Below the pieces are notes generated by a model. The model was not told where the DNA came from. It searched no databases and worked only from the letters and a program-made list of their open reading frames with translations. A DNA stretch of 64,000 nt, taken from contig NZ_JAUOEK010000056.1 in assembly GCF_030540835.1 (NCBI RefSeq), positions 1 to 64,000 of the forward strand, given 5' to 3'. A program made the position numbers and the translations under genes. The stretch is from Flavivirga aquimarina. GTDB lineage: Bacteria > Bacteroidota > Bacteroidia > Flavobacteriales > Flavobacteriaceae. The stretch's first letter is position 1. The number at the start of each line of letters is the position of its first letter. This document shows, in pieces, positions 19,952 to 56,718 of this stretch.

Positions 19952-20107
19952 TTTAAATAGAAAATCATTTATACAATTAAAACATCGGTTATTTCGTATA
20001 ATAAACGTTTATATCGTGCATAGTCCTTATATATCTTTTCAATAAACATTCTCTTTAATTATATATAAGTTTGTTTATTGACAATAATCTCCCTAAATCA
20101 AAATTTA

Positions 20108-20860
20108 ATGAATAAAATTAGCGCATTAATAGTTGAAGATGATACAGTTAGCCTTAATATTCTTAGGTCTCAAATAAGAACACATTTAAAAAATATTAAT
20201 ATATTAGGTGTTGCCAAAAATATTAGTGATGCTATTAGCTCATATAAACAATTAAGACCTCAAATTATATTTTTAGATATTAACCTAGGAGGTGAAAATT
20301 CATTTTCTATGTTAGATGATTTAAAAAAAGAAGCATATAACCCTCAAGTTGTATTCACAACTTCTACCGATGAATTTGCTGTTAAAGCTATAAAGTACGC
20401 TGTTACCGATTATGTTTTAAAACCTATTTCTCCAAGAGATCTCATAAAAGCTGTTAATAAAGCAGTGCATAACATAGAATCTTTTATAAAAATGGAAGCA
20501 TTGAAACGATTGGAGAAAAAAAGCCAAGAATACCCAAAAATTATAGCTATTCCATATATTGATAAAATTGAACTAATTAAATTTGAAAACATATTATATT
20601 GTGAAGCTGACGGACGCTACACGAAATTTCATCTAATAAATGGGGATACAAAAGTAGCCAGCCGTAATTTGGGAGAGTACGAAAAATTATTAGATAAAAA
20701 TTTGTTTTTTAGAGTTCATCATTCTTACATAGTTAATATACTTATGATTCATCATATTAATAAACTTGACGGCAATTATTGTCATTTGATGAACCATAAA
20801 ACACTACCAATTGCTAAGCGAAGACAGGATGAATTAAATAGGTTTTTAAATTTAAAGTAA
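20108..20860 (+). CDS. LytTR-type response regulator
   Basis: A 250-residue two-domain regulator. The receiver domain (about 1-125) has the acidic pair in VEDD, phosphoacceptor Asp57 in FLDINLG, and the Lys in YVLKPIS. The LytTR DNA-binding domain (about 145-248) includes ILYCEADGRYTKFHL and FFRVHHSYIVN. I chose ATG 20108. The frame extends to a TTG at 20078, but the receiver begins right after the ATG. No histidine kinase is adjacent, so it is an orphan here. It lies 500 bases upstream of the exopolysaccharide locus and could control it, which is inference. Confidence 0.88.
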   Translation: MNKISALIVEDDTVSLNILRSQIRTHLKNINILGVAKNISDAISSYKQLRPQIIFLDINLGGENSFSMLDDLKKEAYNPQVVFTTSTDEFAVKAIKYAVTDYVLKPISPRDLIKAVNKAVHNIESFIKMEALKRLEKKSQEYPKIIAIPYIDKIELIKFENILYCEADGRYTKFHLINGDTKVASRNLGEYEKLLDKNLFFRVHHSYIVNILMIHHINKLDGNYCHLMNHKTLPIAKRRQDELNRFLNLK

Positions 20861-21372: not shown

Positions 21373-22503
21373 ATGAAAGTTCTTTCTCTCTCTCTTTTAT
21401 GTATAATGTCTTTTTATTCATTTTCTCAAAATCAACCTAAAAACCCGAATGGTTTTTTGATTAAGTTAGGAGCAAACTATGTTGATAATTCAGGAGATTC
21501 GAATCCGTTTAAATTTTTAACGTCATTTAAAAAGGGAGCTTTTAGTCAGCCTTTAAAATTAGGTGTCGAATATAGGTTTAGTGACCTATTTTCTGTAGGG
21601 GTAGATGGAAGTATAAACAAATGGAAAGCACCTGATGCTGTAATAGATTTAGAAAAAATAACAGAAGATCAAGATTATTTTTCTTTAGATACGAAATTAA
21701 ACCTTTATGTAGATGAGGTTTTTAATTGGTTTTCAAATGCAGATTGGTTGGATTTATATTTAGATGTAGGTGTTGGCTACTTTAAAATAAATGAAGGTGG
21801 TTTGAGTGGTAATTTTGGAGGAGGAACTAATATTTGGCTTTCTCAAAAAATAGGATTGAATTTGACAGCTGTTTCAAAATGGACTTTAGATGAAACCCCT
21901 GCTAAGTATGATACCAATCATCTTCAGTTTTCAGCAGCTGTTATTTTTAAATTATCTAATGGTACTAAAAAACAAGCATTGGATGAATTGAATGATAATA
22001 CTTTAAAAGTTAACTCCGAATCTAAAGATGTAGTAAAAGATGCGTATGCACAAGCTGCGCCAGAGATTGATAATAATAAGGATGTGGCGCCTAATCAAAT
22101 TGAATCTAATACCGAGAAAATAGATAATTCAGAAAATGATTTTGATGATGTTGCAGCTAATTATATTTTGAACTTATCGAGGAAAATTAAATTCAAAGTT
22201 GGAAATTATAATTTTACTCAAGAGTCTTATGAAGACTTAAACAGAATTCTTTTAAGGCTTTTAGAATACCCTAATATTAAATTAAGAATAGAGGGGCATG
22301 CCGATAGCGTTGGTGAGTTTAATGATAATGAAATATTGTCTAAAAAAAGAGCAAATACCGTGAAAAATTATTTAGTTGCGGGGGGAGTCAATCCCAATAA
22401 CCTTATTGTAATAGGGAAAGGAGAGTTGTATCCTATTACATCAAATTTAACAAAAGAAGGGCGTCAAAAAAATAGAAGAGTTGAAATAGTAAGAATTGAT
22501 TAA
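21373..22503 (+). CDS. OmpA-family outer-membrane protein
   Basis: A 376-residue protein with a short signal peptide ending near SFYSFSQ. An N-terminal beta-barrel-like half has alternating residues and aromatic-rich strands (about 25-200). A linker rich in Asp, Asn and Glu is followed by a C-terminal OmpA domain (about 270-376) with IEGHADSVGEFND and KGELYPI...GRQKNRRVEI, the peptidoglycan-binding signature. It opens the exopolysaccharide locus and its stop is 10 bases before the next start. Similar proteins commonly precede capsule genes in Bacteroidota. Whether it takes part in export or only anchors the envelope is unknown. Confidence 0.85.
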   Translation: MKVLSLSLLCIMSFYSFSQNQPKNPNGFLIKLGANYVDNSGDSNPFKFLTSFKKGAFSQPLKLGVEYRFSDLFSVGVDGSINKWKAPDAVIDLEKITEDQDYFSLDTKLNLYVDEVFNWFSNADWLDLYLDVGVGYFKINEGGLSGNFGGGTNIWLSQKIGLNLTAVSKWTLDETPAKYDTNHLQFSAAVIFKLSNGTKKQALDELNDNTLKVNSESKDVVKDAYAQAAPEIDNNKDVAPNQIESNTEKIDNSENDFDDVAANYILNLSRKIKFKVGNYNFTQESYEDLNRILLRLLEYPNIKLRIEGHADSVGEFNDNEILSKKRANTVKNYLVAGGVNPNNLIVIGKGELYPITSNLTKEGRQKNRRVEIVRID

Positions 22504-42958: not shown

Positions 42959-42984
42959 AAAAGGAGAACATTTGTTCTCCTTTT
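42959..42984 (+). terminator. Intrinsic terminator
   Basis: A perfect 12-base inverted repeat (aaaaggagaaca and its complement) around a 2-base spacer is followed by ttatttttag. It is the clearest terminator in the window and probably ends transcription of the polysaccharide locus before the paired HTH genes. Confidence 0.75.
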
Positions 42985-43145: not shown

Positions 43146-43970
43146 ATGTTGATAAAATACTTCAAAATGGTTAAGATATATACATTAAAGGAGGATACCA
43201 ATGTAAACAGAATAATATTAAACTATTCTGAATTGACATATTTAAGGCTTTACATTCATAATTTTAATGATACTGTAATAAAAGATTTTTTAGACATTGA
43301 CACTAAAAAAATCTATTTAATAAGGCATAATTTGCATGTGAAATTTGGTTCTAAAAATTGGATAAAAATAATCTCTAAAGCTTTTGAAAAAGGGCTTATA
43401 AAAAGAGAGGATTTTATCGAAAGTACTGTTAAAAGACTTTCTATAGAAAAAACTCAAATTATTTTTGATAAACATATTTGTTTAGAGTCGTTAACAACGA
43501 ACGAACTTAAAAGTTATTTATTAGAGTTTTACAGGTCTTGCGAAAATGAAATAATGAAGGAGAAATTTCATAAAATGAAATTAGATCTTATGTCGGAAGA
43601 GATTGATTTTATAAAATATAAATATCAAAGTTTGATGGTACCACTAAGTATTTCAGGAAAATTACCAAATTTTAAATTCTTTAAAAAGATAAATCAAAGT
43701 ATTTTTTACAAGCTAGATGTTTCTAATTGGTTTAATGCTTTTAGGGTAGCATTTCAACTTAATATTTTAGAGAAAAGAGATTATTGGTTAATAGATTTAG
43801 ATACTGAAATTAACAAAACCGCCGAAAAATTAAATGCTATAAACAAATTAAACACAGACTATTACGAGAAAAAAAATAAGGTTTATTATTTATTAAATAA
43901 ACTATATACAGATATTGAATATTCTTATTTACTGAATAAGAATGTATTCCCCAAAAACATGCTAACGTAA
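43146..43970 (+). CDS. Double LuxR-like HTH protein A, unknown function
   Basis: A 274-residue protein that I cannot assign to a named family. Two segments have the length and pattern of LuxR-type helix-turn-helix domains: residues about 25-90 (NYSELTYLRL...IKDFLDIDTKKIYLIRHNL) and 147-212 (SEEIDFIKYKYQ...NWFNAFRVAFQLNILEKRDY). Each is followed by a helix with an acidic-aromatic signature (LLEFYRSCENEI at 125-136, LNKLYTDIEYSYLL at 250-263). The whole protein thus looks like a duplicated module. The next gene has the same plan. The second HTH copy lacks the usual recognition-helix pattern. ATG 43167 is an alternative start. Confidence 0.6.
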   Translation: MLIKYFKMVKIYTLKEDTNVNRIILNYSELTYLRLYIHNFNDTVIKDFLDIDTKKIYLIRHNLHVKFGSKNWIKIISKAFEKGLIKREDFIESTVKRLSIEKTQIIFDKHICLESLTTNELKSYLLEFYRSCENEIMKEKFHKMKLDLMSEEIDFIKYKYQSLMVPLSISGKLPNFKFFKKINQSIFYKLDVSNWFNAFRVAFQLNILEKRDYWLIDLDTEINKTAEKLNAINKLNTDYYEKKNKVYYLLNKLYTDIEYSYLLNKNVFPKNMLT

Positions 43971-43972
43971 TT

Positions 43973-44767
43973 ATGACTGACTTATATTTAGAAAATTTCT
44001 GCAAAAAAAATGTAAAACAAAGAACTGAATTAACGTCTAAAGAGATATACTATTTAAGACTTATATCTCATGGCTGTCAAACTTCCGAGATTTGCGATTT
44101 TTTGAATGTTAAAAAGAAAACACTTTATGTATATACAAAGAGGGTAAAAGATAAACTTAAATGTAAAACGAATGTTGATACTATAATTAAAGCTTTTAAA
44201 TTAAATATTTTAGATAAGTATGACTTCGTAGAAGAGTCTATAAAAGATCAGGCATCTATTTATGCAGATACTGTTAGTAATAGAATAAATGAGCTAACAG
44301 AAGATATGGGTAATAATAGTATAAATACTTTAGGGATGGCTGTTGTTGAATTTTATGAGACATGCGAAATGGAGTTACAGGCAAAAAGCAAAGTCTTTTT
44401 TAATTTAAAAGAAAAAAGTTATTTAGAACTTAAATTTAAAGGTTTGCCTTCCAGTTTTATTATCGAAGAATTAAAATTATCGATAGATGAAGTTAGTGCA
44501 TTAAAGAAGAGTATATTTCAAAAATTAAAAACTCACGAATGGTTTAATAGTATAAAAAAAGGGTTTAATTATGGGATATTAAATAGACAGGATTACTTAT
44601 CTTTAGATATGTATACAGAAGCACTAGATTGTGCTTCAAAAATAATGGCAATTAAATCATTTACTAATTTAACAGATAAAGAAAAACATTTAGTAGTTTA
44701 TCACCAACTGATTGATTTTTACAACGTTTTGGAATATAATTGCTTATTAAAAATGAAAGCATCATAA
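43973..44767 (+). CDS. Double LuxR-like HTH protein B, unknown function
   Basis: A 264-residue paralogue of the preceding protein, starting 2 bases after its stop codon. The first HTH (about 19-83) is close to canonical LuxR/GerE: LTSKEIYYLRLISHGCQTSE, then ICDFLNVKKKTLYVYTKRVK and DKLKCKTNVDTIIKAF. A second, more divergent copy spans 144-205 (LKEKSYLELKFKGLPSSFII then FQKLKTHEWFNSIKKGF). Each copy is followed by the helix EFYETCEMEL (126-135) or DFYNVLEYNCLL (248-259). No receiver or sensor domain is present. It is probably a DNA-binding regulator or half of a heteromeric one, possibly for the polysaccharide locus. Confidence 0.65.
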   Translation: MTDLYLENFCKKNVKQRTELTSKEIYYLRLISHGCQTSEICDFLNVKKKTLYVYTKRVKDKLKCKTNVDTIIKAFKLNILDKYDFVEESIKDQASIYADTVSNRINELTEDMGNNSINTLGMAVVEFYETCEMELQAKSKVFFNLKEKSYLELKFKGLPSSFIIEELKLSIDEVSALKKSIFQKLKTHEWFNSIKKGFNYGILNRQDYLSLDMYTEALDCASKIMAIKSFTNLTDKEKHLVVYHQLIDFYNVLEYNCLLKMKAS

Positions 44768-44810: not shown

Positions 44811-45326
44811 TCATTTATAAAATAACGTAGTGAAGTAGTACCTATCCTTTAATGATGATTTTAATACGCCAAAACCTATATTCGAAAAATCACCTTCTAT
44901 GACTTCTCTATGAGCTTCACTTTTTAACCAGGCATTAACCACCGTTTGAGCAGAACTATAGCCATAAGCAACATTTTCACTTACATCAATAACACCTTTG
45001 CTTTTTAACCCATTACTTCTAAAGTAAAAAAAGTCATGACTAACATTATCGGTAGAGATCATATATTTACTATGCTTAACAGCATAAGCAGTTGCATATA
45101 AGGTGTCTTTTTTAAGTATACTTTTGCCTTTTTCGCTTCTATGCTTATTAATTAAGTCTAATATAGTATTAGACATGTTCCAGTCGTTTTCATTAACAAG
45201 AGCTAAATCAATATCGTTATATAAACCAAGATTATTATCCTCCATTTTATCGGTTGTACACGATAATACAGACATTATAATGAAAGAAAGCGTAATTGTT
45301 TTTAGTGTTAATTTATCAGAAATCAT
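44811..45326 (-). CDS. CAP-domain (SCP/PR1-like) lipoprotein
   Basis: A 171-residue secreted protein with a signal peptide and lipobox VLSC (cysteine near residue 23). The CAP domain spans about 50-171: ILDLINKHRSEKGKSIL, AVKHSKYM with the conserved His, SENVAYGYSSAQTVVNAWL with the conserved Glu, and SEAHREVIEGDFSNIGFGV with the second His. Bacterial CAP proteins are envelope proteins of mostly unknown activity. I use ATG 45326 rather than a TTG two codons upstream. It converges with the HTH pair. Confidence 0.85.
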   Translation of the reverse strand: MISDKLTLKTITLSFIIMSVLSCTTDKMEDNNLGLYNDIDLALVNENDWNMSNTILDLINKHRSEKGKSILKKDTLYATAYAVKHSKYMISTDNVSHDFFYFRSNGLKSKGVIDVSENVAYGYSSAQTVVNAWLKSEAHREVIEGDFSNIGFGVLKSSLKDRYYFTTLFYK

Positions 45327-45641
45327 AAGCAATTATTATGCTACAAAACTGACAATAAAAAGGAGGTTTTATAAGTGAAAAGTAATAAGTGGGTGTATTC
45401 TTTTTTTAACAGGGAGAGAATAGAAATAAACGGTTTTTATTTAACGGCTTAATATCACATATCCTAATAATAGCATATAGATTTGTAGCTTTTTTAAACT
45501 AAAAACTAAGTATATCACCGATTGCTTAACTAGATATTCGAGATATGATACAGTTATTACTTTGTACTTACTAACGGTATATGCATTATCTACATTTACA
45601 AAAGCTTATAAAGAAGCGATTATGTTAATAGATATTTTAAA
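45327..45641. other. Intergenic region, nothing assigned
   Basis: About 315 bases between the divergent CAP-domain gene and a small membrane ORF. It presumably holds both promoters, but no -7/-33 pair is convincing and no repeat or RNA gene is seen. Confidence 0.4.
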
Positions 45642-45836
45642 ATGAATACAATGAGTCATATTATTAAAGTGGCATTAAGCCTAACACAAACAGAACTAAA
45701 AAGTATTTTCTTTTTCATTTTGTTTTTTTTAATCGTAACACTTGTTTATTTGTTTTTTAAAATGTTTAAATTCATAAAAGAAGAAGCCATTAAAGATGCT
45801 AAAAATGAAAAAGGACAAGATTTATATTGTAATTAG
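45642..45836 (+). CDS. Possible small single-pass membrane protein
   Basis: A 64-residue frame with one strong membrane helix (SIFFFILFFLIVTLVYLFF, about residues 21-39) followed by a charged cytoplasmic tail (KEEAIKDAKNEKG). The composition is plausible for a real small membrane protein, but no family is recognised and it stands alone. Confidence 0.45.
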   Translation: MNTMSHIIKVALSLTQTELKSIFFFILFFLIVTLVYLFFKMFKFIKEEAIKDAKNEKGQDLYCN

Positions 45837-47264: not shown

Positions 47265-48926
47265 ATGAATACAGAACAGAAAGTCCTTAGGATACATGAA
47301 AAAGATAACGCTATAGTTGCCTTATGCAATTTAAAAAAGGGAACAGAAATCACTTTTGAAGGTAAGCAATATCATTTTCAAAGTGATATTGATGCTAAAC
47401 ATAAGTTTGTTTCAGAAGATTTATCTGAGGGCGATGCCGTATACATGTATGGTGTGTTAGTAGGAAGAGCAAAACAAAACATTTCGAAAGGCGAATTAAT
47501 TCATACACACAATTTAGTTCACGATACCGAGAAATATGGTGTTAAAAATGAAGAAAAACAAATAGTTTGGAATACACCAGATGTTTCTAAGTTTAAAGAT
47601 AAAACGTTTTTAGGCTATCATAGAGCAGATGGTAAGGTTGGTACAGAAAATAATTGGTTAGTAATACCATTAGTGTTTTGTCAAAATAGAAATGTTGAGG
47701 TTTTAAAAGATGCGTTAATAGAAAAATTAGGCTATGGTAAGAAACAACATTTAAGTTTAGATGTTGATTCGCTAATTAATAGTTATAAAGAAGGAGAATC
47801 TTCAGATACTATTTTAGAAAAAAATATATTGAAGGATGGAGAAGATTTTAATAAAAACCCACTTTTTCCAAATGTAGATGGCATTAAATTTTTAACCCAC
47901 GATGGGGGATGTGGTGGAGCAACTTCAGATTCTGTAACACTTTGTAACCTATTGGCAGGGTATATTAATAACCCGAATGTAGCCGGAGCAACGGTTTTGA
48001 GTTTAGGATGTCAACATGCACAATCAGCTATTTTACAAGAAGCACTTGCGAAAATGTCGCCTGATATCAAAAAACCAGTTTATGTTTTAGAGCAACAGCA
48101 AATTAAATCTGAAAAAGAATTATTAGCACAAGCTGTAAAGAAAACCTTTGTCGGTATAATTGAAGCGAATAAAATAGAACGAAAACCAGCAACTCTAGAT
48201 AAATTAATAGTTGGCTTAGAATGCGGAGGGTCTGATGGATTTTCTGGAATTTCTGCAAACCCAACACTAGGATATGTATCCGATTTAGTTGTTGCTATGG
48301 GAGGTACTACAGTACTTTCAGAATTTCCAGAATTGAATGGTGTAGAGCAAGAACTAATTAATAGGTGTACAAGTAAGGAAAAAGCAAATAAATTTTCGAG
48401 TATCATGTCTGCCTACAATGAAAAAGCAGATGCTTTAGGAGCAGGTTTTTATGCCAACCCATCACCAGGGAATATAAAAGACGGATTAATTACCGATGCT
48501 ATAAAATCTGCAGGAGCAGCAAAAAAAGGAGGAAATTCACCAGTAGAAGATGTGTTGGATTACACAGAACAAGTTGAAAAACCGGGGCTTAATTTATTAT
48601 GCACTCCAGGTAATGATGTTGAATCTACAACAGGTTTAGCTGGTTCTGGTTGTAATGTCATCTTGTTTACAACAGGACTAGGTACCCCAACAGGGAATCC
48701 TATTACCCCAACGGTAAAAGTATCTTCAAACACGTCACTTTATAAAAAAATGCCAGATATTATAGATTTTAATTCAGGCGAAATAATAGAAGGAAAAGCT
48801 ACAATTCAAGAAATGGGAGAAGCATTGTTAGACCATGTGATTGAAGTTGCTAGCGGAAAACAAACTAAAGCAAGATTGCTAAAACAAGACGATTTTATTC
48901 CGTGGAAAAGAGGCATGTCGTTATAA
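47265..48926 (+). CDS. UxaA-family dehydratase, probable L-fuconate dehydratase
   Basis: A 553-residue altronate/galactarate dehydratase-family enzyme. The N-terminal SAF domain (about 1-95) is joined to the catalytic domain with GGCGGATSDSVTL, LSLGCQHAQS, GLECGGSDGFSGISANPTLG and the C-terminal STTGLAGSGCNVILFTTGLG. Its cysteines may bind the metal or cluster. In Campylobacter jejuni, UxaA-type proteins take part in L-fucose catabolism. In this cluster the enzyme should dehydrate L-fuconate to 2-keto-3-deoxy-L-fuconate. Substrate assignment rests on the neighbours. Confidence 0.85.
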   Translation: MNTEQKVLRIHEKDNAIVALCNLKKGTEITFEGKQYHFQSDIDAKHKFVSEDLSEGDAVYMYGVLVGRAKQNISKGELIHTHNLVHDTEKYGVKNEEKQIVWNTPDVSKFKDKTFLGYHRADGKVGTENNWLVIPLVFCQNRNVEVLKDALIEKLGYGKKQHLSLDVDSLINSYKEGESSDTILEKNILKDGEDFNKNPLFPNVDGIKFLTHDGGCGGATSDSVTLCNLLAGYINNPNVAGATVLSLGCQHAQSAILQEALAKMSPDIKKPVYVLEQQQIKSEKELLAQAVKKTFVGIIEANKIERKPATLDKLIVGLECGGSDGFSGISANPTLGYVSDLVVAMGGTTVLSEFPELNGVEQELINRCTSKEKANKFSSIMSAYNEKADALGAGFYANPSPGNIKDGLITDAIKSAGAAKKGGNSPVEDVLDYTEQVEKPGLNLLCTPGNDVESTTGLAGSGCNVILFTTGLGTPTGNPITPTVKVSSNTSLYKKMPDIIDFNSGEIIEGKATIQEMGEALLDHVIEVASGKQTKARLLKQDDFIPWKRGMSL

Positions 48927-48958
48927 TAAAAACACAAAAAAGAATAACCTAGTTAAAA

Positions 48959-49741
48959 ATGACCAAGTTTAGTTTAAAAAATAAAGTAGCATTAGTTACA
49001 GGAGGCGGAAGCGGTATAGGAAAAGCAATTTCCTTAACCTTTGCAAGCCAAGGAGCAAAAGTACATATCCTAGATTTTAATATAGAGGCAGCAGAAGAAA
49101 CAGTTAAAGAAATTGAAAACTTAGGAGAACAGGCCGCTGCACACAAATGTGATGTATCTAACCAAAGTAATGTTAACGAGATTATTGAAAATATTACTAA
49201 AAATGATACCATAGATATTTTAATAAACAACGCAGGTATTGCCCATGTAGGTAATATAGAAGCAGTAGAGGTAGAAGATCTGGATAGATTATATAACGTT
49301 AATATAAAAGGTGTTTACAACTGTATAAAAGCCAGTTTACCTGCATTAAAAGCTAATGGAGGCGGTGTTATTTTAAATCTAGCTTCAATAGCTTCTTCAG
49401 TTGGTATAAATAGCCGATTTGCTTATTCTATGACTAAAGGAGCCGTATTAACCATGACATATTCTATAGCAAAAGATTATGTGTTAGAAGGGATACGTTG
49501 TAACTGTATTTCTCCCGCTAGAGTACATACACCTTTTGTAGATGGATTTATTAAGAAAAATTACCCGGGTAAGGAAGACGAAATGTTCGATAAATTATCT
49601 AAAACACAACCTATAGGTAGAATGGGTAAGCCACAGGAAATAGCAGATTTAGCCTTGTTTTTATGTTCAGACGAAGCTAAGTTTATCACAGGATCAGATT
49701 ACGCGATAGATGGCGGATTTATAAAATTAAACGGAAATTAA
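48959..49741 (+). CDS. SDR oxidoreductase, probable 2-keto-3-deoxy-L-fuconate dehydrogenase
   Basis: A 260-residue classical short-chain dehydrogenase. It has the cofactor motif GGGSGIG (15-21), NNAG (90-93), catalytic Ser143, and Tyr156/Lys160 in YSMTK. Asp39 after the second strand favours NAD+. Its place between the dehydratase and the FAH-family hydrolase suggests oxidation of 2-keto-3-deoxy-L-fuconate at C4 to the 2,4-diketo acid. It lies 32 bases after the dehydratase. Confidence 0.87.
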   Translation: MTKFSLKNKVALVTGGGSGIGKAISLTFASQGAKVHILDFNIEAAEETVKEIENLGEQAAAHKCDVSNQSNVNEIIENITKNDTIDILINNAGIAHVGNIEAVEVEDLDRLYNVNIKGVYNCIKASLPALKANGGGVILNLASIASSVGINSRFAYSMTKGAVLTMTYSIAKDYVLEGIRCNCISPARVHTPFVDGFIKKNYPGKEDEMFDKLSKTQPIGRMGKPQEIADLALFLCSDEAKFITGSDYAIDGGFIKLNGN

Positions 49742-49761
49742 AATAGAGAAAACGTATAGAT

Positions 49762-50616
49762 ATGAAATTAATAAGATTTGGAGCTGTTGGTGAAGAAAAA
49801 CCAGGTGTACAATTAGCAAACGGAACTAACATAGATGTATCGGCATTTGGAAGTGATTATGATGAAGCATTTTTTGGAAATGATGGTATCGAAAAATTAA
49901 GTGCTTGGTTAGAGCAAAACGAATCAAGTTGTCCTGTAATTGATGATAGTGTACGTTTAGGAGCTCCTTTAACACGACCTTCTAAAATAGTTTGTGTAGG
50001 ACTAAACTATGCGCAGCATGCAGCAGAGGCAGGTATGGAGATACCTAAAGAGCCTGTGTTATTTTTTAAATCGACTACAGCATTAGTGGGCCCTAATGAC
50101 GATGTTATTATACCAAAAGGGAGCGAGAAATCCGACTGGGAAGTAGAGTTAGCCATTGTAATAGGTAAAAAAGCATCTTATGTTGAAGAAGCAGATGCTT
50201 TCGATCATGTAGCAGGTTATGTATTACACAACGATGTAAGCGAACGTGCTTATCAATTAGAACGTTCAGGGCAGTGGTGTAAAGGAAAAGGCTGCGATAC
50301 GTTTGCACCTGTAGGTCCTTTTATTGCAACTAAAGATGAAATTAAAGACCCTAATAACTTAAACTTGTGGTTAAAACTAAATGGTGAAGAGATGCAAAAT
50401 AGCTCAACGTCAGATTTTATTTTTAACGTACAGCACGTTGTGAGCCATATTAGCCAATTCATGACACTTTTACCAGGAGACATCATTTCAACAGGAACGC
50501 CGTTTGGTGTTGGTTTAGGCTTAAACCCTCCTATGTATTTAAAAGAAGGTGATGTTATGGAGTTAGGAATAGAAGGTTTAGGAGTATCTAAACAAAACGT
50601 AAAAGCTTATAAATAG
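49762..50616 (+). CDS. FAH-family hydrolase, probable 2,4-diketo-3-deoxy-L-fuconate hydrolase
   Basis: A 284-residue fumarylacetoacetate-hydrolase-family enzyme. Metal ligands are readable as Glu127 and Glu129 in DWEVELAIVIGKK and Asp158 in HNDVSERAYQ. The C-terminal STGTPFGVGLGLNPP and YLKEGDVMELGIEGLG are typical of the diketo-acid-cleaving branch. Cleavage of 2,4-diketo-3-deoxy-L-fuconate would give pyruvate and L-lactate, which explains the lactate genes downstream. Its stop codon overlaps the GTG start of the next gene by one base. Confidence 0.88.
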   Translation: MKLIRFGAVGEEKPGVQLANGTNIDVSAFGSDYDEAFFGNDGIEKLSAWLEQNESSCPVIDDSVRLGAPLTRPSKIVCVGLNYAQHAAEAGMEIPKEPVLFFKSTTALVGPNDDVIIPKGSEKSDWEVELAIVIGKKASYVEEADAFDHVAGYVLHNDVSERAYQLERSGQWCKGKGCDTFAPVGPFIATKDEIKDPNNLNLWLKLNGEEMQNSSTSDFIFNVQHVVSHISQFMTLLPGDIISTGTPFGVGLGLNPPMYLKEGDVMELGIEGLGVSKQNVKAYK

Positions 50617-51446
50617 TGATAATAGATGCACATCAACATTTTTGGAATTACGATCCAGTTAGAGATAGCTGGATTGACGATTCGATGCAGGTCATTCGTA
50701 AAGATTTTTTACCTAAAGGCCTAAGGCCAGTTTTAGAAGCCAATAATGTTGATGGGTGTATTGCAGTACAAGCAGACCAATCAGAAGAAGAAACAGAATT
50801 TCTTCTAGAATGCGCTAAAAATAATCCTTTTATAAAAGGGGTTGTAGGTTGGCTAGATCTACGGGCAGAAAATATAGAAGAGCGTTTAACACATTATTCA
50901 AAGCATAAACTATTTAAAGGAGTTAGACATATTGTACAAGCAGAAACAGATGATGCTTTTATGCTCAAGCCAGATTTTTTAAATGGTATTAACAAACTGG
51001 AACAATTTGGATTAACATACGATATATTAATTCATGAAGGCCAACTATCTCAAGCTGTTGCTTTGGTAGAAAAATGCCCAAATCAGCAGTTTGTTTTAGA
51101 TCATATAGCAAAACCTAAAATATCTAATGGTGTAGATTCGATTTGGGAAAAGCACATGAGAGCTTTAGGGGCATATAAAAATGTGTCTTGTAAAATTTCG
51201 GGTATGGTTACCGAAACACAAGACTTTAAATGGCAGGAGAAAGATTTTACGCCTTTTTTAGATGTCATAGTAGATGCTTTCGGCGTAGATAGATTACTCT
51301 ATGGTTCCGATTGGCCGGTGTGTTTACTCGCTGGAACTTATGGAGAAGTCATACAAATAGTACAGCGTTATTTTGAAAAGTTTTCAAAACAAGATGTTTT
51401 GAAGGTTATGGGTGAGAATGCTGCAAGAATATATAAACTAGATTAA
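50616..51446 (+). CDS. Amidohydrolase-superfamily lactonase, probable L-fucono-1,5-lactonase
   Basis: A 276-residue TIM-barrel amidohydrolase of the fuconolactonase/PDC-lactonase group. Metal-binding IDAHQHFW is at the N-terminus, with FKGVRHIVQ, FVLDHIAKP and YGSDWPVC with the conserved Asp further on. It would hydrolyse L-fuconolactone to L-fuconate. The start is GTG, overlapping the previous stop as TAGTG: the HxH motif begins at about residue 5 and no in-frame ATG precedes it. This arrangement indicates translational coupling. Confidence 0.88.
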   Translation: MIIDAHQHFWNYDPVRDSWIDDSMQVIRKDFLPKGLRPVLEANNVDGCIAVQADQSEEETEFLLECAKNNPFIKGVVGWLDLRAENIEERLTHYSKHKLFKGVRHIVQAETDDAFMLKPDFLNGINKLEQFGLTYDILIHEGQLSQAVALVEKCPNQQFVLDHIAKPKISNGVDSIWEKHMRALGAYKNVSCKISGMVTETQDFKWQEKDFTPFLDVIVDAFGVDRLLYGSDWPVCLLAGTYGEVIQIVQRYFEKFSKQDVLKVMGENAARIYKLD

Positions 51447-51473
51447 GAAAAGAAACTAAATTGAGACTAATTA

Positions 51474-52256
51474 ATGGATTTACAACTAAAAGATAAGGTC
51501 GTAATAGTAACAGGGGGGTCTAAAGGAATAGGCCTAGGGATTGTAGAATCCTTAGTTAGAGAAGGAGCTATACCTGCTATAATAACTAGAAATAAAGCTA
51601 GTGTTTTAGAGATTATACCAGAGTTTAAAAAAAGAGGGATAGACCTTTTTTATGCGCTTGCAGAACTTACAGATAAAGAACAATGCAAAGCAGCTGTAGA
51701 AAGTGTTATAGAAAAGTACGGAAAAATAGACGGGCTAGTAAATAATGCTGGTGTAAATGACGGTATTGGTTTAGAAAATGGCGATTACGAAGGTTTTATG
51801 TCATCATTAAAACGCAATGTAGTTCATTATTACCTTATGGCACATTATGCGTTGCCAGCACTCAAAAAAAGTAAAGGCGCTATTGTAAATATAGGATCTA
51901 AAACAGCCGATACAGGTCAAGGAGGCACATCCGGATATGCAGCTTCCAATGGAGGTAGAAATGCTTTAACAAGAGAATGGGCAGTAGAGTTATTACCTTA
52001 TAGCATTCGTGTTAATGCTTTAATTGTGGCAGAATGCTATACACCTTTATACGAAAAATGGATTAGCACATTTCCTAATAAAGAGGAGAAATTAGCAGGA
52101 ATCACCAAAAATATACCTTTAGAAAAGCGTATGACAACCGCCGAGGAAATTGGAGATACTGTAGCCTTTTTGCTATCAAATAAATCCAGTCATACTACAG
52201 GGCAACTTTTATATGTAGATGGTGGTTATACCCATCTGGATAGAGCTCTTGAATAA
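51474..52256 (+). CDS. SDR oxidoreductase, probable L-fucose 1-dehydrogenase, with atypical YxxxN
   Basis: A 260-residue short-chain dehydrogenase. It has cofactor motif GGSKGIG (14-20), NNAG (90-93), Ser142 in NIGSKTADTG, and Tyr155 in GYAASNGGRNALTREW. The catalytic Lys of YxxxK is replaced by Asn159 (codon AAT at 51948-51950). The rest of the fold, including VDGGYTH near the C-terminus, is intact. Context points to oxidation of L-fucose to L-fucono-1,5-lactone, the first step. I recall Asn at this position in related Bacteroidota enzymes, so it may be a subfamily trait and not damage. Confidence 0.83.
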   Translation: MDLQLKDKVVIVTGGSKGIGLGIVESLVREGAIPAIITRNKASVLEIIPEFKKRGIDLFYALAELTDKEQCKAAVESVIEKYGKIDGLVNNAGVNDGIGLENGDYEGFMSSLKRNVVHYYLMAHYALPALKKSKGAIVNIGSKTADTGQGGTSGYAASNGGRNALTREWAVELLPYSIRVNALIVAECYTPLYEKWISTFPNKEEKLAGITKNIPLEKRMTTAEEIGDTVAFLLSNKSSHTTGQLLYVDGGYTHLDRALE

Positions 52257-52294
52257 TACACAATAATTAAATATATTGAAACTAAACTAAAACC

Positions 52295-53662
52295 ATGAAT
52301 ATGAAAAACACGACTAAAATTCCAGTAGTTCCTAAAAAAATGCTTTTGCCATTTATTTTGGTAACTTCATTATTTGCATTATGGGGGTTTGCTAATGCTG
52401 TAACAGATCCAATGGTTGGAGCTTTCAAAACGATATTAGAATTATCAAATACTCAAGCATCGTGGGTGCAAATGGCATTTTATGGCGGATATTTTTGTAT
52501 GGCATTACCAGCAGCTTTATTTATGCGTAAATATTCATATAAAGTAGGTATTTTAATAGGATTGGCACTATATGCTACTGGAGCACTTTTGTTTTACCCA
52601 GCTGCACAAACAGAAAGTTTTATATTTTTTTGTTTAGGATTATATGTGTTAACTTTTGGATTAGCATTTTTAGAAACAGCTGCAAACCCATACGCACTAG
52701 CTATGGGAGCAAAAGAAACAGCAACACAACGTTTAAATTTAGCTCAAGCAGTAAATCCTTTGGGATTAGTAGCAGGGTTGTTGATTGCTAAATTTTCAGT
52801 TAAAGAAAAATTACAATCAGATGATATTGCTGATTTTTCTACTTTAGATGAATCGACTAGGGATGCTATAAGAATGGCTGACTTATCTGTTATTCGTGAT
52901 CCTTATGTTGTTTTAGGCTTAGTTATAATTGCTGTTTTTATAATGTTTTTGGTTAGTAAAATGCCACAATCTAAAGAAGAGGGAGCTATGCCTAGTATTA
53001 AAGATACCTTTATTATTTTATTTAAAAATAATAAATACGTTTTAGGTGTTTTAGCTCAAATATTATATGTTGGTGCGCAAATTATGTGTTGGACATATAT
53101 ATATCATTATGTGCAAGGGCTTTTAGCCAAAAATGTATTCGAAATTTCGAGTATCAATATTTTGGGTCTGGAGTTTGAAAAAGATGCTTTTTATTATCAA
53201 TTTTTAGCTTTCATATTATTTGTAGTAGGAAGAGCTGTTGGTACGTATTTATTACGTTTTGTAAGTTCTGGAAAACTTTTAATGTATTTTGCTGTTTTAG
53301 CAACAATATGCGCAGCAGGTACAATTTGGATTGAAGGTATGTTTGGTGTCTATAGTTTAGTTGGAATTTCATTCTGTATGTCTTTAATGTTCCCTACCAT
53401 ATATGGCATTGCTTTAGGAGACTTAACAGAAGAAGAATCTAAAGTTGGTTCTGCTGGTTTAGTTATGGCTATTGTAGGAGGTGCTTTAATGCCTATGTTA
53501 CAGGGAATGATTATTGATATTGAAGGAACAGGTGTTTCAGATACTATAATAATGGGCGTTTCAGAAGTTAATTTTTCATTTATTTTACCTTTAGTTTGTT
53601 TTATATATATCGCTTGGTACGGATTTCATGTATTTAAAAAATACGAAGTAAAAACAGCTTAG
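52295..53662 (+). CDS. fucP: L-fucose:H+ symporter
   Basis: A 455-residue major-facilitator protein of the FHS (FucP) family with about 12 membrane segments. Motifs include FALWGFANAVTDPMVGAFK in the first segment, FYGGYFCMALPAALFMRKYS, and FLETAANPYALAMGAKETAT with QRLNLAQAVNPLGLVAG, a strong FucP signature. It imports L-fucose with protons. It is flanked by the fucose dehydrogenase and mutarotase genes (38 and 4 bases away), confirming the substrate of the operon. Confidence 0.92.
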   Translation: MNMKNTTKIPVVPKKMLLPFILVTSLFALWGFANAVTDPMVGAFKTILELSNTQASWVQMAFYGGYFCMALPAALFMRKYSYKVGILIGLALYATGALLFYPAAQTESFIFFCLGLYVLTFGLAFLETAANPYALAMGAKETATQRLNLAQAVNPLGLVAGLLIAKFSVKEKLQSDDIADFSTLDESTRDAIRMADLSVIRDPYVVLGLVIIAVFIMFLVSKMPQSKEEGAMPSIKDTFIILFKNNKYVLGVLAQILYVGAQIMCWTYIYHYVQGLLAKNVFEISSINILGLEFEKDAFYYQFLAFILFVVGRAVGTYLLRFVSSGKLLMYFAVLATICAAGTIWIEGMFGVYSLVGISFCMSLMFPTIYGIALGDLTEEESKVGSAGLVMAIVGGALMPMLQGMIIDIEGTGVSDTIIMGVSEVNFSFILPLVCFIYIAWYGFHVFKKYEVKTA

Positions 53663-53666
53663 TTTT

Positions 53667-53996
53667 ATGAAAAGGTATTGTTTTGCACTCGATTTAAAAG
53701 ATGATCCTGCTTTAATTAGTGAATATATAGAGTATCATAAAAAGGTATGGCCAGAAATTTTAAAGAGTATAAAAGATTCTGGAATTATATATGCTGAAAT
53801 ATACCATGTTTTCGACAGATTGTTTTTAATAATAGATACCCATGAATCATTTTCTCTTGAAAATAAAGGAAAAATGGATTCTGAAAACCCAATAGTTCAA
53901 AAATGGGAAGATCTTATGTGGAACTATCAAAAAGCATTACCAAATGCTAAGCCTGGAGAAAAATGGATTTTAATGGAGCGCATTTTTAAACTTTAA
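53667..53996 (+). CDS. L-rhamnose/L-fucose mutarotase family protein
   Basis: A 109-residue ferredoxin-like-fold protein of the RhaM family. Diagnostic residues are present: RYCFALDLKDDPALI at the N-terminus, YHKKVWPEIL with His24 and Trp28, IYHVFDRLFLIIDTH and the C-terminal WILMERIFKL. It interconverts anomers of L-fucose or L-rhamnose and would feed the dehydrogenase with its preferred anomer, as FucM-type enzymes do. It starts 4 bases after fucP. Confidence 0.88.
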   Translation: MKRYCFALDLKDDPALISEYIEYHKKVWPEILKSIKDSGIIYAEIYHVFDRLFLIIDTHESFSLENKGKMDSENPIVQKWEDLMWNYQKALPNAKPGEKWILMERIFKL

Positions 53997-54033
53997 TGAG
54001 ATGTATTTCATAATTAATTAGATAAAAAGAATA

Positions 54034-54771
54034 ATGAAGGTAGGTTTATTTATACCCTGTTACATAAATCAGTTATATCCGCAAGTTGGAGTTGCTACTT
54101 TAGAACTATTAGAAAAGTTAGGGGTTGAAGTCGATTATCCAATGGGGCAAACCTGTTGTGGACAACCCTTAGGTAATTCTGGTTATGAAGAAGATTCTAA
54201 AGGCGCATGTCAGTTGTTTGTTGAAAACTTTAAAGCTTACGATTACATTGTTGGCCCTTCTGGAAGTTGTGTATATCATGTAAAAAAACATTTTGATATT
54301 TTAGAACAAACAGATGCTGTAAAAAAGGTGAGAAATAATACATACGAACTGTGTCAATTTATTTATAAAGTATTAGGAAGAACAGATATAGGCGCGTCGT
54401 TTCCTTTTAAGGTTGGGATTCATAAAAGTTGCCATGGATTAAGAGGATTGCGTTTAGGTTCATGTTCCGAACGTATGGATGATCCTTACTCTACAGAAGA
54501 AAGTTTACTTAAAGAAGTAAAATCTCTTGAATTAAAGACTTTAAATAGAGCAGATGAATGTTGCGGATTTGGAGGAACGTTTTCTGTTTTTGAAGAAGCC
54601 ATTTCGGTTAAAATGGGAAAAGATAGAATACAAGATCATATAGATAGTGATGTTGAAGTCATAACAGGAGCAGACCATTCTTGTTTAATGCATTTAGAGG
54701 GGTTGATAAATAGAAATAATCAACCATTAAAAGTGATGCACATTGCAGAAATTTTAAATAGCACAATGTAA
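54034..54771 (+). CDS. lutA: Lactate utilisation protein A, Fe-S oxidoreductase
   Basis: A 245-residue protein with two cysteine-rich CCG domains: QTCCGQPLGNSGY (about 43-55) and DECCGFGGTFSVFEEA (about 180-195). Additional Cys and His residues lie in GPSGSCVYHVKKHF and GIHKSCHGLRG. LutA, LutB and LutC together oxidise L-lactate to pyruvate. It precedes lutB by 2 bases. In this operon the lactate would come from FAH-hydrolase cleavage of the fucose-derived diketo acid. Confidence 0.92.
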   Translation: MKVGLFIPCYINQLYPQVGVATLELLEKLGVEVDYPMGQTCCGQPLGNSGYEEDSKGACQLFVENFKAYDYIVGPSGSCVYHVKKHFDILEQTDAVKKVRNNTYELCQFIYKVLGRTDIGASFPFKVGIHKSCHGLRGLRLGSCSERMDDPYSTEESLLKEVKSLELKTLNRADECCGFGGTFSVFEEAISVKMGKDRIQDHIDSDVEVITGADHSCLMHLEGLINRNNQPLKVMHIAEILNSTM

Positions 54772-54773
54772 TC

Positions 54774-56141
54774 ATGGCACACGCAAAAGAAGCAGAAATA
54801 TTTAATAGAGACGAATCAAAAGTTAATTGGCATGATAAAGCGTTGTGGTTTGTTAGAAATAAACGCGACAAAGCTGGAAGTAATGTTAAAGGGTGGGAAG
54901 AACTCCGAAATTTAGCCTCAGCCATTAAAGCTAATGTGTTATCTAATTTAGATAATTATTTGGTTCAGTTTGAAGAAAATGCCAAAAAAAATGGAGTTCA
55001 TGTTCATTGGGCAGCAAATGCCGAAGAGCATAATAAAATTGTTCATTCCATTTTATCAAAACACAAGGTAGAAAAAGTAGTGAAAAGTAAGTCGATGCTA
55101 ACAGAAGAGTGTCACTTAAATCCCTATTTAGAAGCCAATGGTATAGAAGTCGTAGACACCGATTTAGGTGAACGCATCGTACAATTGGCCAAAGAGCCGC
55201 CAAGCCATATTGTTCTACCAGCTATTCATAAAACAAAAGAAGAAGTAGATGTTTTGTTTCAAGAGCATTTAAATACAAAACCGAGTAATGGTGATCCGCA
55301 ATATTTAACAAGTGAAGCGAGAAAGCATTTACGAGAAAAGTTTTTAAAAGCAGATGCAGCCATTACAGGAGTAAATTTTGCAGTAGCAGATACAGGTGGT
55401 GTTGTAGTTTGCACCAATGAAGGAAATGCCGATATGGGCACGCACCTTGCAAAAGTTCATATTGCGTGCATGGGTATGGAAAAAATCATTCCGCAAGAAA
55501 AACATTTAGGGGTTTTCCTTCGATTATTGGCACGTAGTGCTACAGGACAACTCATTACCACTTATTCGTCGCATTTTAATAAACCGGCTCCAGGAACAGA
55601 AATGCATATCGTAATTGTCGATAACGGAAGAACCAAACAACTAAGCCGTGATGATTTTAGAGCTTCTTTACACTGTATTCGATGTGGTGCTTGTATGAAT
55701 ACATGTCCCATATACAGACGTAGTGGTGGACATAGTTATAAAACAACCATTCCAGGCCCTATAGGTTCTATTTTATCACCAGGTATCGATTTAAAGAAAA
55801 ACAGTTCGTTACCGTTTGCATCTACCTTATGTGGTTCATGTTCTGATGTTTGTCCGGTAAAAATCAATATTCATGAACAGTTATATCAATGGAGGCAAAT
55901 AATAACTAAAGAAGTAAAGCAGCCTGTTGTAAAGAAATCTGTTTTAAAAATAACCGGACGTGTTTTAGCGAATTCTAAAATGTATGGTTTTATGGGTAAA
56001 TCAGCGCGATTTATGCTAAAGCATATGCCTCGATTTATGATATATTCTAAGTTAAATGCTTGGGGGAAAGCAAGAGAATTGCCTAAAGTGAAGGATGGTA
56101 ATTTTGATGAGTGGTATAAAAAAAGACAAAAAAATGAGTAG
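54774..56141 (+). CDS. lutB: Lactate utilisation protein B, iron-sulfur protein
   Basis: A 455-residue protein with an N-terminal LUD domain (about 65-290) and a ferredoxin-like part with two [4Fe-4S] motifs: CIRCGACMNTCPIYRR and LCGSCSDVCPVKINI. A C-terminal LutB-type segment ends the protein. It carries electrons from lactate oxidation toward the respiratory chain. It overlaps lutC by 8 bases and follows lutA by 2. Confidence 0.92.
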   Translation: MAHAKEAEIFNRDESKVNWHDKALWFVRNKRDKAGSNVKGWEELRNLASAIKANVLSNLDNYLVQFEENAKKNGVHVHWAANAEEHNKIVHSILSKHKVEKVVKSKSMLTEECHLNPYLEANGIEVVDTDLGERIVQLAKEPPSHIVLPAIHKTKEEVDVLFQEHLNTKPSNGDPQYLTSEARKHLREKFLKADAAITGVNFAVADTGGVVVCTNEGNADMGTHLAKVHIACMGMEKIIPQEKHLGVFLRLLARSATGQLITTYSSHFNKPAPGTEMHIVIVDNGRTKQLSRDDFRASLHCIRCGACMNTCPIYRRSGGHSYKTTIPGPIGSILSPGIDLKKNSSLPFASTLCGSCSDVCPVKINIHEQLYQWRQIITKEVKQPVVKKSVLKITGRVLANSKMYGFMGKSARFMLKHMPRFMIYSKLNAWGKARELPKVKDGNFDEWYKKRQKNE

Positions 56142-56718
56142 TAGAGATTCCATTTTAAAAGCGGTTAAAAATAACAAACCTGAATTATTACCATTACCGG
56201 AAATCGATTTAGATGTTTTTAATGAAGATATTAACTTACTTGAAACATTTATAAAAAGTGTAGAACTTGTAGGAGGACGTGCCAAAGTATTAAATTCAAT
56301 ATCAGATTTAGATAATGAAATAAAAGCATTATATCCTAATGCAAAACAAATTGTTTCTTCTGTTAAAGAATCCGATTTTGGCACGGTTTCAATTTCAAAA
56401 GATACAGATCCACATAGTTTAGAAACTATTGATTTAGCGATTATACAAGGAGAATTTGGTGTTGCAGAAAATGGAGCTGTTTGGATTTCTGAAAATGATT
56501 TCAGTATTAGGGTTTTACCATTTATAACAAACGATTTAATTTTGGTAATATCCAAAGATGCTATTTGCTTACACTTACATGATGCTTATAAATTAATTTC
56601 AAAGAGAGAAAGAACTTTTGGGTTGTTTGTTGCTGGGCCATCAAAAACGGCAGACATTGAGCAGTGTTTAGTTATTGGAGCGCATGGTGCTGTTAGTCTA
56701 ACGGTTATGGTAGTTTAA
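56134..56718 (+). CDS. lutC: Lactate utilisation protein C, LUD domain
   Basis: A 194-residue LUD-domain protein. It begins MSSRDSILKAVKNNKPELLP and contains the LUD core IIQGEFGVAENGAVWISEND, ending VAGPSKTADIEQCLVIGAHG, the typical LutC C-terminus. I chose ATG 56134. A frame extension to 56095 reads through the lutB tail and has no family match. It is the last gene of the fucose-lactate operon and is followed by a probable terminator. Confidence 0.9.
   Translation: MSSRDSILKAVKNNKPELLPLPEIDLDVFNEDINLLETFIKSVELVGGRAKVLNSISDLDNEIKALYPNAKQIVSSVKESDFGTVSISKDTDPHSLETIDLAIIQGEFGVAENGAVWISENDFSIRVLPFITNDLILVISKDAICLHLHDAYKLISKRERTFGLFVAGPSKTADIEQCLVIGAHGAVSLTVMVV

Follow-up and report, generated by a model that had tools for sequence, protein, structure and literature searches.

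The adjacent genes A and B probably encode regulators that bind DNA, in each of which a pair of LuxR-type modules, N and C, is fused. We put this reading at roughly 55%. Both proteins are built from a unit of about 130 residues that occurs twice, and in which a LuxR/GerE-type helix-turn-helix (HTH) is followed by a helical hairpin, and the hairpin of each unit carries an aromatic-acidic motif. The genes lie 2 bases apart in the window, the whole stretch of 64,000 nucleotides that was analysed. The true start of A is likely 43167 (Met8), so that the protein is probably 267 aa long. The features are as follows:

20078-20860, + strand, LytTR response regulator gene, on the 5' side of the capsule locus and 22 kb from A
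42959-42984, + strand, terminator-like inverted repeat (intrinsic type), between the capsule locus and gene A
43146-43970, + strand, gene A, 274 aa as called
43146-43559, + strand, putative N-type module of A, HTH at about residues 21-87, hairpin 93-141
43560-43970, + strand, putative C-type module of A, second HTH helix (residues 164-173) not confidently formed
43973-44767, + strand, gene B, 264 aa
43973-44383, + strand, putative N-type module of B, GerE-type HTH at residues 16-82, hairpin 88-137
44384-44767, + strand, putative C-type module of B, HTH helices 145-199, hairpin 213-259
44811-45332, - strand, gene of a CAP/SCP-domain predicted lipoprotein, convergent with B

The initial annotation proposed two LuxR-like HTH modules in each protein, and profiles and AlphaFold models agree on this. 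Residues 19-73 of B match PF00196 (GerE) with 48.4 bits, against a gathering score of 23.5; protein A had no match in Pfam. At E 0.1, GerE matches were obtained for 5 of 14 N-type rows, 6 of 10 split C-type rows and 5 of 8 fused proteins. Profiles of A-like modules matched GerE domains at E 2e-7 and 3e-7, and the C-module profile matched GerE at E 1.7e-4 (probability 49%) in its split form and at E 9e-9 in its fused form. Structure prediction of A and B singly, suggested in the initial annotation, gave the HTH fold in both N modules. The N modules are modelled with a four-helix LuxR-type HTH; the C module has all four HTH helices in B and lacks one in A. The GerE structure 1fse was among the structural likenesses, and the structures listed were matches to N modules.

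A and B are described as four modules in two genes, with N-terminal HTHs and no sensor, and this description is supported; no receiver or ligand-binding domain was found. Neither a receiver domain nor an autoinducer-binding domain was matched by Pfam in A or B up to E 1. NCBIfam response-regulator models match B in the HTH region only (best at residues 5-84), and a TraR-type model covers residues 13-72 only. The HTH begins near residue 16-21 in A and B, that is, N-terminally in the module. By these searches, A and B show neither the layout of LuxR/NarL response regulators, an N-terminal receiver with a C-terminal HTH, nor the autoinducer-binding domain of LuxR autoinducer receptors.

The family is small. 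It was accepted in 11 of 397 sampled Flavobacteriaceae genomes; 57 matched at E 1e-7, and we kept those in which the match extends into the tail or the C module. Of the 46 dropped genomes, G186 was matched in an ordinary response regulator and the others over about one HTH (profile positions 8-94). With B alone as query, 7 of 299 genomes matched at E 1e-6, and a first scan of genome contigs with B found no relative. Four of 395 genomes matched in the order sample at E 1e-8 (G394 and G517 being ordinary one-HTH proteins), 2 of 237 in the class sample (the G953 match spanning one HTH) and 2 of 228 in the phylum sample, both from the window's own family. No accepted member was found outside this family in the order, class and phylum samples; in each genome the profile searches scored the 6 to 11 top candidates of a first look, and diverged members may be missed. 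Within the window's genus, members are present in 9 of 12 genomes, and 7 of these 9, including the window's genome, have split pairs, with three in G663. Genes near-identical to those of the genus were found in named records of Flavivirga and Algibacter lectus. The window's genome has a second, split cassette on contig C157, with genes of 135 and 142 aa that overlap by ATGA. Mobile carriage was rejected, as B had no match among plasmids or phages at E 0.01; in PHROGs, B had weak matches and A none at E 0.01. In searches of one open-access library, we found no description of such a module family.

Eleven fused proteins, as many split pairs and 6 lone modules were studied. Single modules stand alone in G077, G295, G185 and G020, and a lone module gene lies ahead of a fused one in G240 and G757, with an overlap of 7 nt. 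At two loci of different genera with the same chromosomal setting (L091:3965-7806 and L092:3718-7637), a single-module member lies directly upstream of a gene for a Cas9-like protein of 1118-1140 aa. Both Cas9-like proteins have HNH_4, RuvC_III is below cut-off in one, and the first RuvC-like motif, judged by eye, has Asp in L092 and Gly in L091. No direct repeat family (at least 22 bases, spacing up to 120) was found within the 11 and 14 kb read at these loci, and no cas1/cas2 was seen there by eye.

The order of modules, N then C, is constant whether fused or split. In all 11 distinct split cassettes the two genes overlap, by 4 nt (ATGA) in 8 and by 1 nt in 3. In a tree of 50 modules, with an uncertain root and several long branches, 22 N modules lie together beyond a branch supported at 97/90, and 22 C modules lie together beyond a weak one (46/77). 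The split single genes form one clade nested in N (100/99) and one nested in C (92/99). By this tree, N- and C-type modules are separate lineages, the C clade being weakly supported. The simplest reading of the history is one duplication that would have given N and C, after which a fused gene would have split once within the window's genus. A recent tandem duplication giving A and B was rejected: they are 30% identical to each other, and each is nearer to a protein of another genome (A to one of G669, 46%; B to one of G697, 55%). By sequence comparison, A and B are two old lineages side by side. Another view is that these are ordinary GerE-like regulators that each act alone, and that they are paired through an old duplication with no special mechanism. 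GerE itself is a stand-alone HTH (1fse), and lone single-module members occur, as this view would expect; N and C lineages that stay separate and paired in a constant order, fused or split, make it very unlikely. Ratios of dN/dS were 0.11-0.26 in all 12 unsaturated comparisons, covering N, C and fused genes and leaving out three pairs with dS >1 (B-G697, A-G669 and A-B). As judged from these ratios, N and C modules are both under purifying selection.

The two module types differ in the charge of the recognition helix. Its mean net charge is +3.3 in fused and +4.6 in split N modules, and +0.6 in fused and +1.1 in split C modules (n=11 each); in the GerE domains of ordinary regulators of the window's genome it is +2.3 (n=10). 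Exceptions to this trend are the C modules of A (+4), G220 (+3) and L053 (+3) and the N modules of G666 (0) and G697 (+1). The C module is selected and its recognition helix is mostly uncharged, and thus C is needed, though probably not as a standard DNA reader. It could instead be, as the initial annotation first suggested, that both modules bind DNA, with one protein reading a tandem or long site and A with B reading four half-sites. Over the whole HTH, mean net charge is alike in the two module types (+3.3 to +4.0), the C module of B keeps an HTH-like order of helices, and the +4 of A's C module would suit such binding. This reading is unlikely in view of the far lower mean charge of C recognition helices, the low confidence of the second HTH helix in A's C module and the aligned HTH segments that are shortened in G240c, G757a and G071. 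Use of the divergent modules for protein contacts, one of the ideas offered at the outset, is the best-fitting one, as C recognition helices are mostly not basic and N and C behave as a pair.

We infer that N and C are an obligate pair, in which N would read DNA and C would be its built-in partner. This is the most economical reading because the genes either overlap or are fused. Through packing of the hairpins, N and C would be held together as a fixed pseudo-dimer, and perhaps A and B as well. The basic recognition helix of the N module would contact and read DNA, and the C module, with its mostly discharged recognition helix, would be a structural or regulatory partner. The site read by such an N:C pair would be short or asymmetric. 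The pair might be controlled by its own amount or dose, or by a partner, for which a LytTR response regulator is the best candidate.

The LytTR gene at 20078-20860 belongs to a subfamily that adjoins modules elsewhere, and no kinase gene was noticed beside it. We fetched 41 LytTR loci and dropped L137, which had no ORF over its midpoint. Among 13 locus groups, made by hand from trees and neighbours, a LytTR gene lies within 16-319 bp in four (L020/L088, L024, L094 and L054-L058-L059) and within 5.1 kb in eight, the further four being L022, L090, L093 and L052-L053, the last of which belong to a seven-member group. L060, of the group of L054-L058-L059, had no LytTR in the fetched stretch. In a binomial test on 15 groups, with 4 within about 1.2 kb, P was 3e-5 for the mean LytTR density and 1e-3 when the density of the richest genome was used. 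In a LytTR tree, 13 of 17 linked rows are in one clade of 15 rows (99/99), where rows counted as linked despite their distance include the window (22 kb), L090 (4.9 kb) and L093 (5.0 kb). G220, whose genome has a fused module at another place, supplies the remaining two rows of the clade. The four linked rows outside the clade are L022 (twice), L052 and L053; L022 has two membrane-type LytTR proteins, which were found by a wider LytTR model. A different LytTR protein (268 aa) is encoded at L052:13017-13823 and L053:12817-13623, at a distance of 4.4-4.6 kb from the split cassettes; it is related to G000:C180 (L144). Directly upstream of a fused module gene, L024:6476-7589 holds a gene of 116 aa and one of 118 aa, each encoding hardly more than a LytTR domain, and no receiver domain was seen in their products.

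At a threshold of at least 236 bits, the subfamily is present in 6 of 11 module genomes and 17 of 386 others (Fisher P 7e-6, kinship uncorrected). Four of these six genomes (G000, G240, G757 and G697) supplied sequences to the LytTR model, and with them removed the subfamily is in 2 of 7 module genomes (P 0.04, kinship uncorrected). It also occurs in genomes without detected modules, in some cases beside LytS-type kinases. An obligate partnership is thus weakened, as the subfamily is wider than the modules and P is 0.04 once model-source genomes are removed. The proteins might instead be adaptors or anti-activators rather than transcription factors, with modules of HTH fold that serve protein contacts, binding a regulator such as the linked LytTR protein to block or redirect it. 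The recurrent linkage to one subfamily and the acidic tail of B's N module (-10) are consistent with this. It is nevertheless quite unlikely, as the average N recognition helix is more basic than that of this genome's ordinary GerE regulators and the first HTH of B scores above the GerE cut-off.

A link to capsule or Wzc loci, raised by the initial annotation, did not survive as a rule. We compared 17 window proteins encoded at 21373-42380 with 26 fetched stretches, 25 of which hold a family member, at E 1e-3. The 16 proteins from 22496 on had no match in the 26 stretches, save for one dehydrogenase-like protein at 24% identity, and capsule genes are thus not a conserved neighbour. The outer-membrane protein at 21373-22503, encoded ahead of the capsule genes and beside the LytTR gene, has a relative at 50% identity in L094 and weaker ones in five other stretches. 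From these genomic neighbourhoods, the link to the LytTR subfamily is better supported than that to capsule genes, without being obligatory.

Possible targets of the modules are adjoining surface or envelope genes. Some neighbours, named by eye, are of this kind (SusCD-like genes, LamG-type proteins, PorP- and OmpA-like genes and a secreted repeat protein). The case is weak because the neighbours at many loci are metabolic or housekeeping genes. A CAP-domain neighbour convergent with a B-type gene is shared by the window and G697, which has the closest relative of B; the two CAP-domain proteins are 63% identical (dN 0.24, dS 1.38). Further downstream, window 45642-45836 is a 64-aa predicted membrane ORF, whose match to IcaD (E 0.0024, 18 bits) is below the cut-off of 69. 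A putative sugar-acid catabolic cluster lies at 47265-56718, beyond an AraC-type regulator. Its members were named by sequence appearance (altronate-dehydratase-like, SDR, fumarylacetoacetase-like, amidohydrolase, transporter), unlike the AraC HTH, which was identified by Pfam.

Operators were searched in the 350 bases upstream of 16 loci (arms of at least 8, loop up to 12), and 11 upstream regions were also aligned in two groups. Perfect inverted repeats were found at 5 of the 16 loci, and only those of the window and G697, which are terminator-like, are alike; by this search of repeats and alignments, a shared operator was rejected. A repeat resembling window 42959-42984 lies in L090, upstream of 8029 (-) and likewise 5' of a module gene, and the form shared by the two is AAAAGG[A/C]GAAC...GTTC[T/G]CCTTTT. 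A broader proposal is a two-part system of Flavobacteriaceae, in which the obligate N:C pair, together with one LytTR subfamily, switches envelope, capsule and surface-protein loci, C being a former DNA-binding domain that now serves as dimer partner or receiver. We regard this as speculative and rather unlikely.

In this family, living genomes carry one pair of HTH modules in a fused and in a split form. One module apparently loses its DNA-reading face while it stays under selection, which would be a testable example of how a DNA-binding domain becomes a dedicated partner. The A/B family also supplies a candidate regulator of genes in marine members of the Flavobacteriaceae.

Among known systems, GerE of B. 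subtilis has one HTH of PF00196, whereas A and B have an HTH and hairpin twice, in distinct N and C types. NarL/FixJ-type response regulators of the same genome share the HTH domain family with A and B by profile, but A and B have no receiver domain that we found, and their HTH is N-terminal in the module. LytTR belongs to a different DNA-binding family from the LuxR/GerE-type HTH, and LytTR response regulators, a recurrent genomic neighbour of the modules, are a possible partner and not a relative. BldM and WhiI have a C-terminal HTH behind another domain. Pairs of LuxR-type proteins that act together are BldM-WhiI in Streptomyces and RcsA-RcsB in E. coli, as described in PMC4125116. There, WhiI and RcsA apparently do not activate alone, the partner alters which site is read in both pairs, RcsA-RcsB activates capsule genes, and the HTH of RcsA and RcsB is C-terminal, behind another domain (PMC4125116). 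By contrast, the partners in the A/B family are fused or encoded by overlapping genes and have no other recognised domain. We do not class A and B with either system because the architecture differs; by analogy, BldM-WhiI and RcsA-RcsB are the nearest worked-out parallels.
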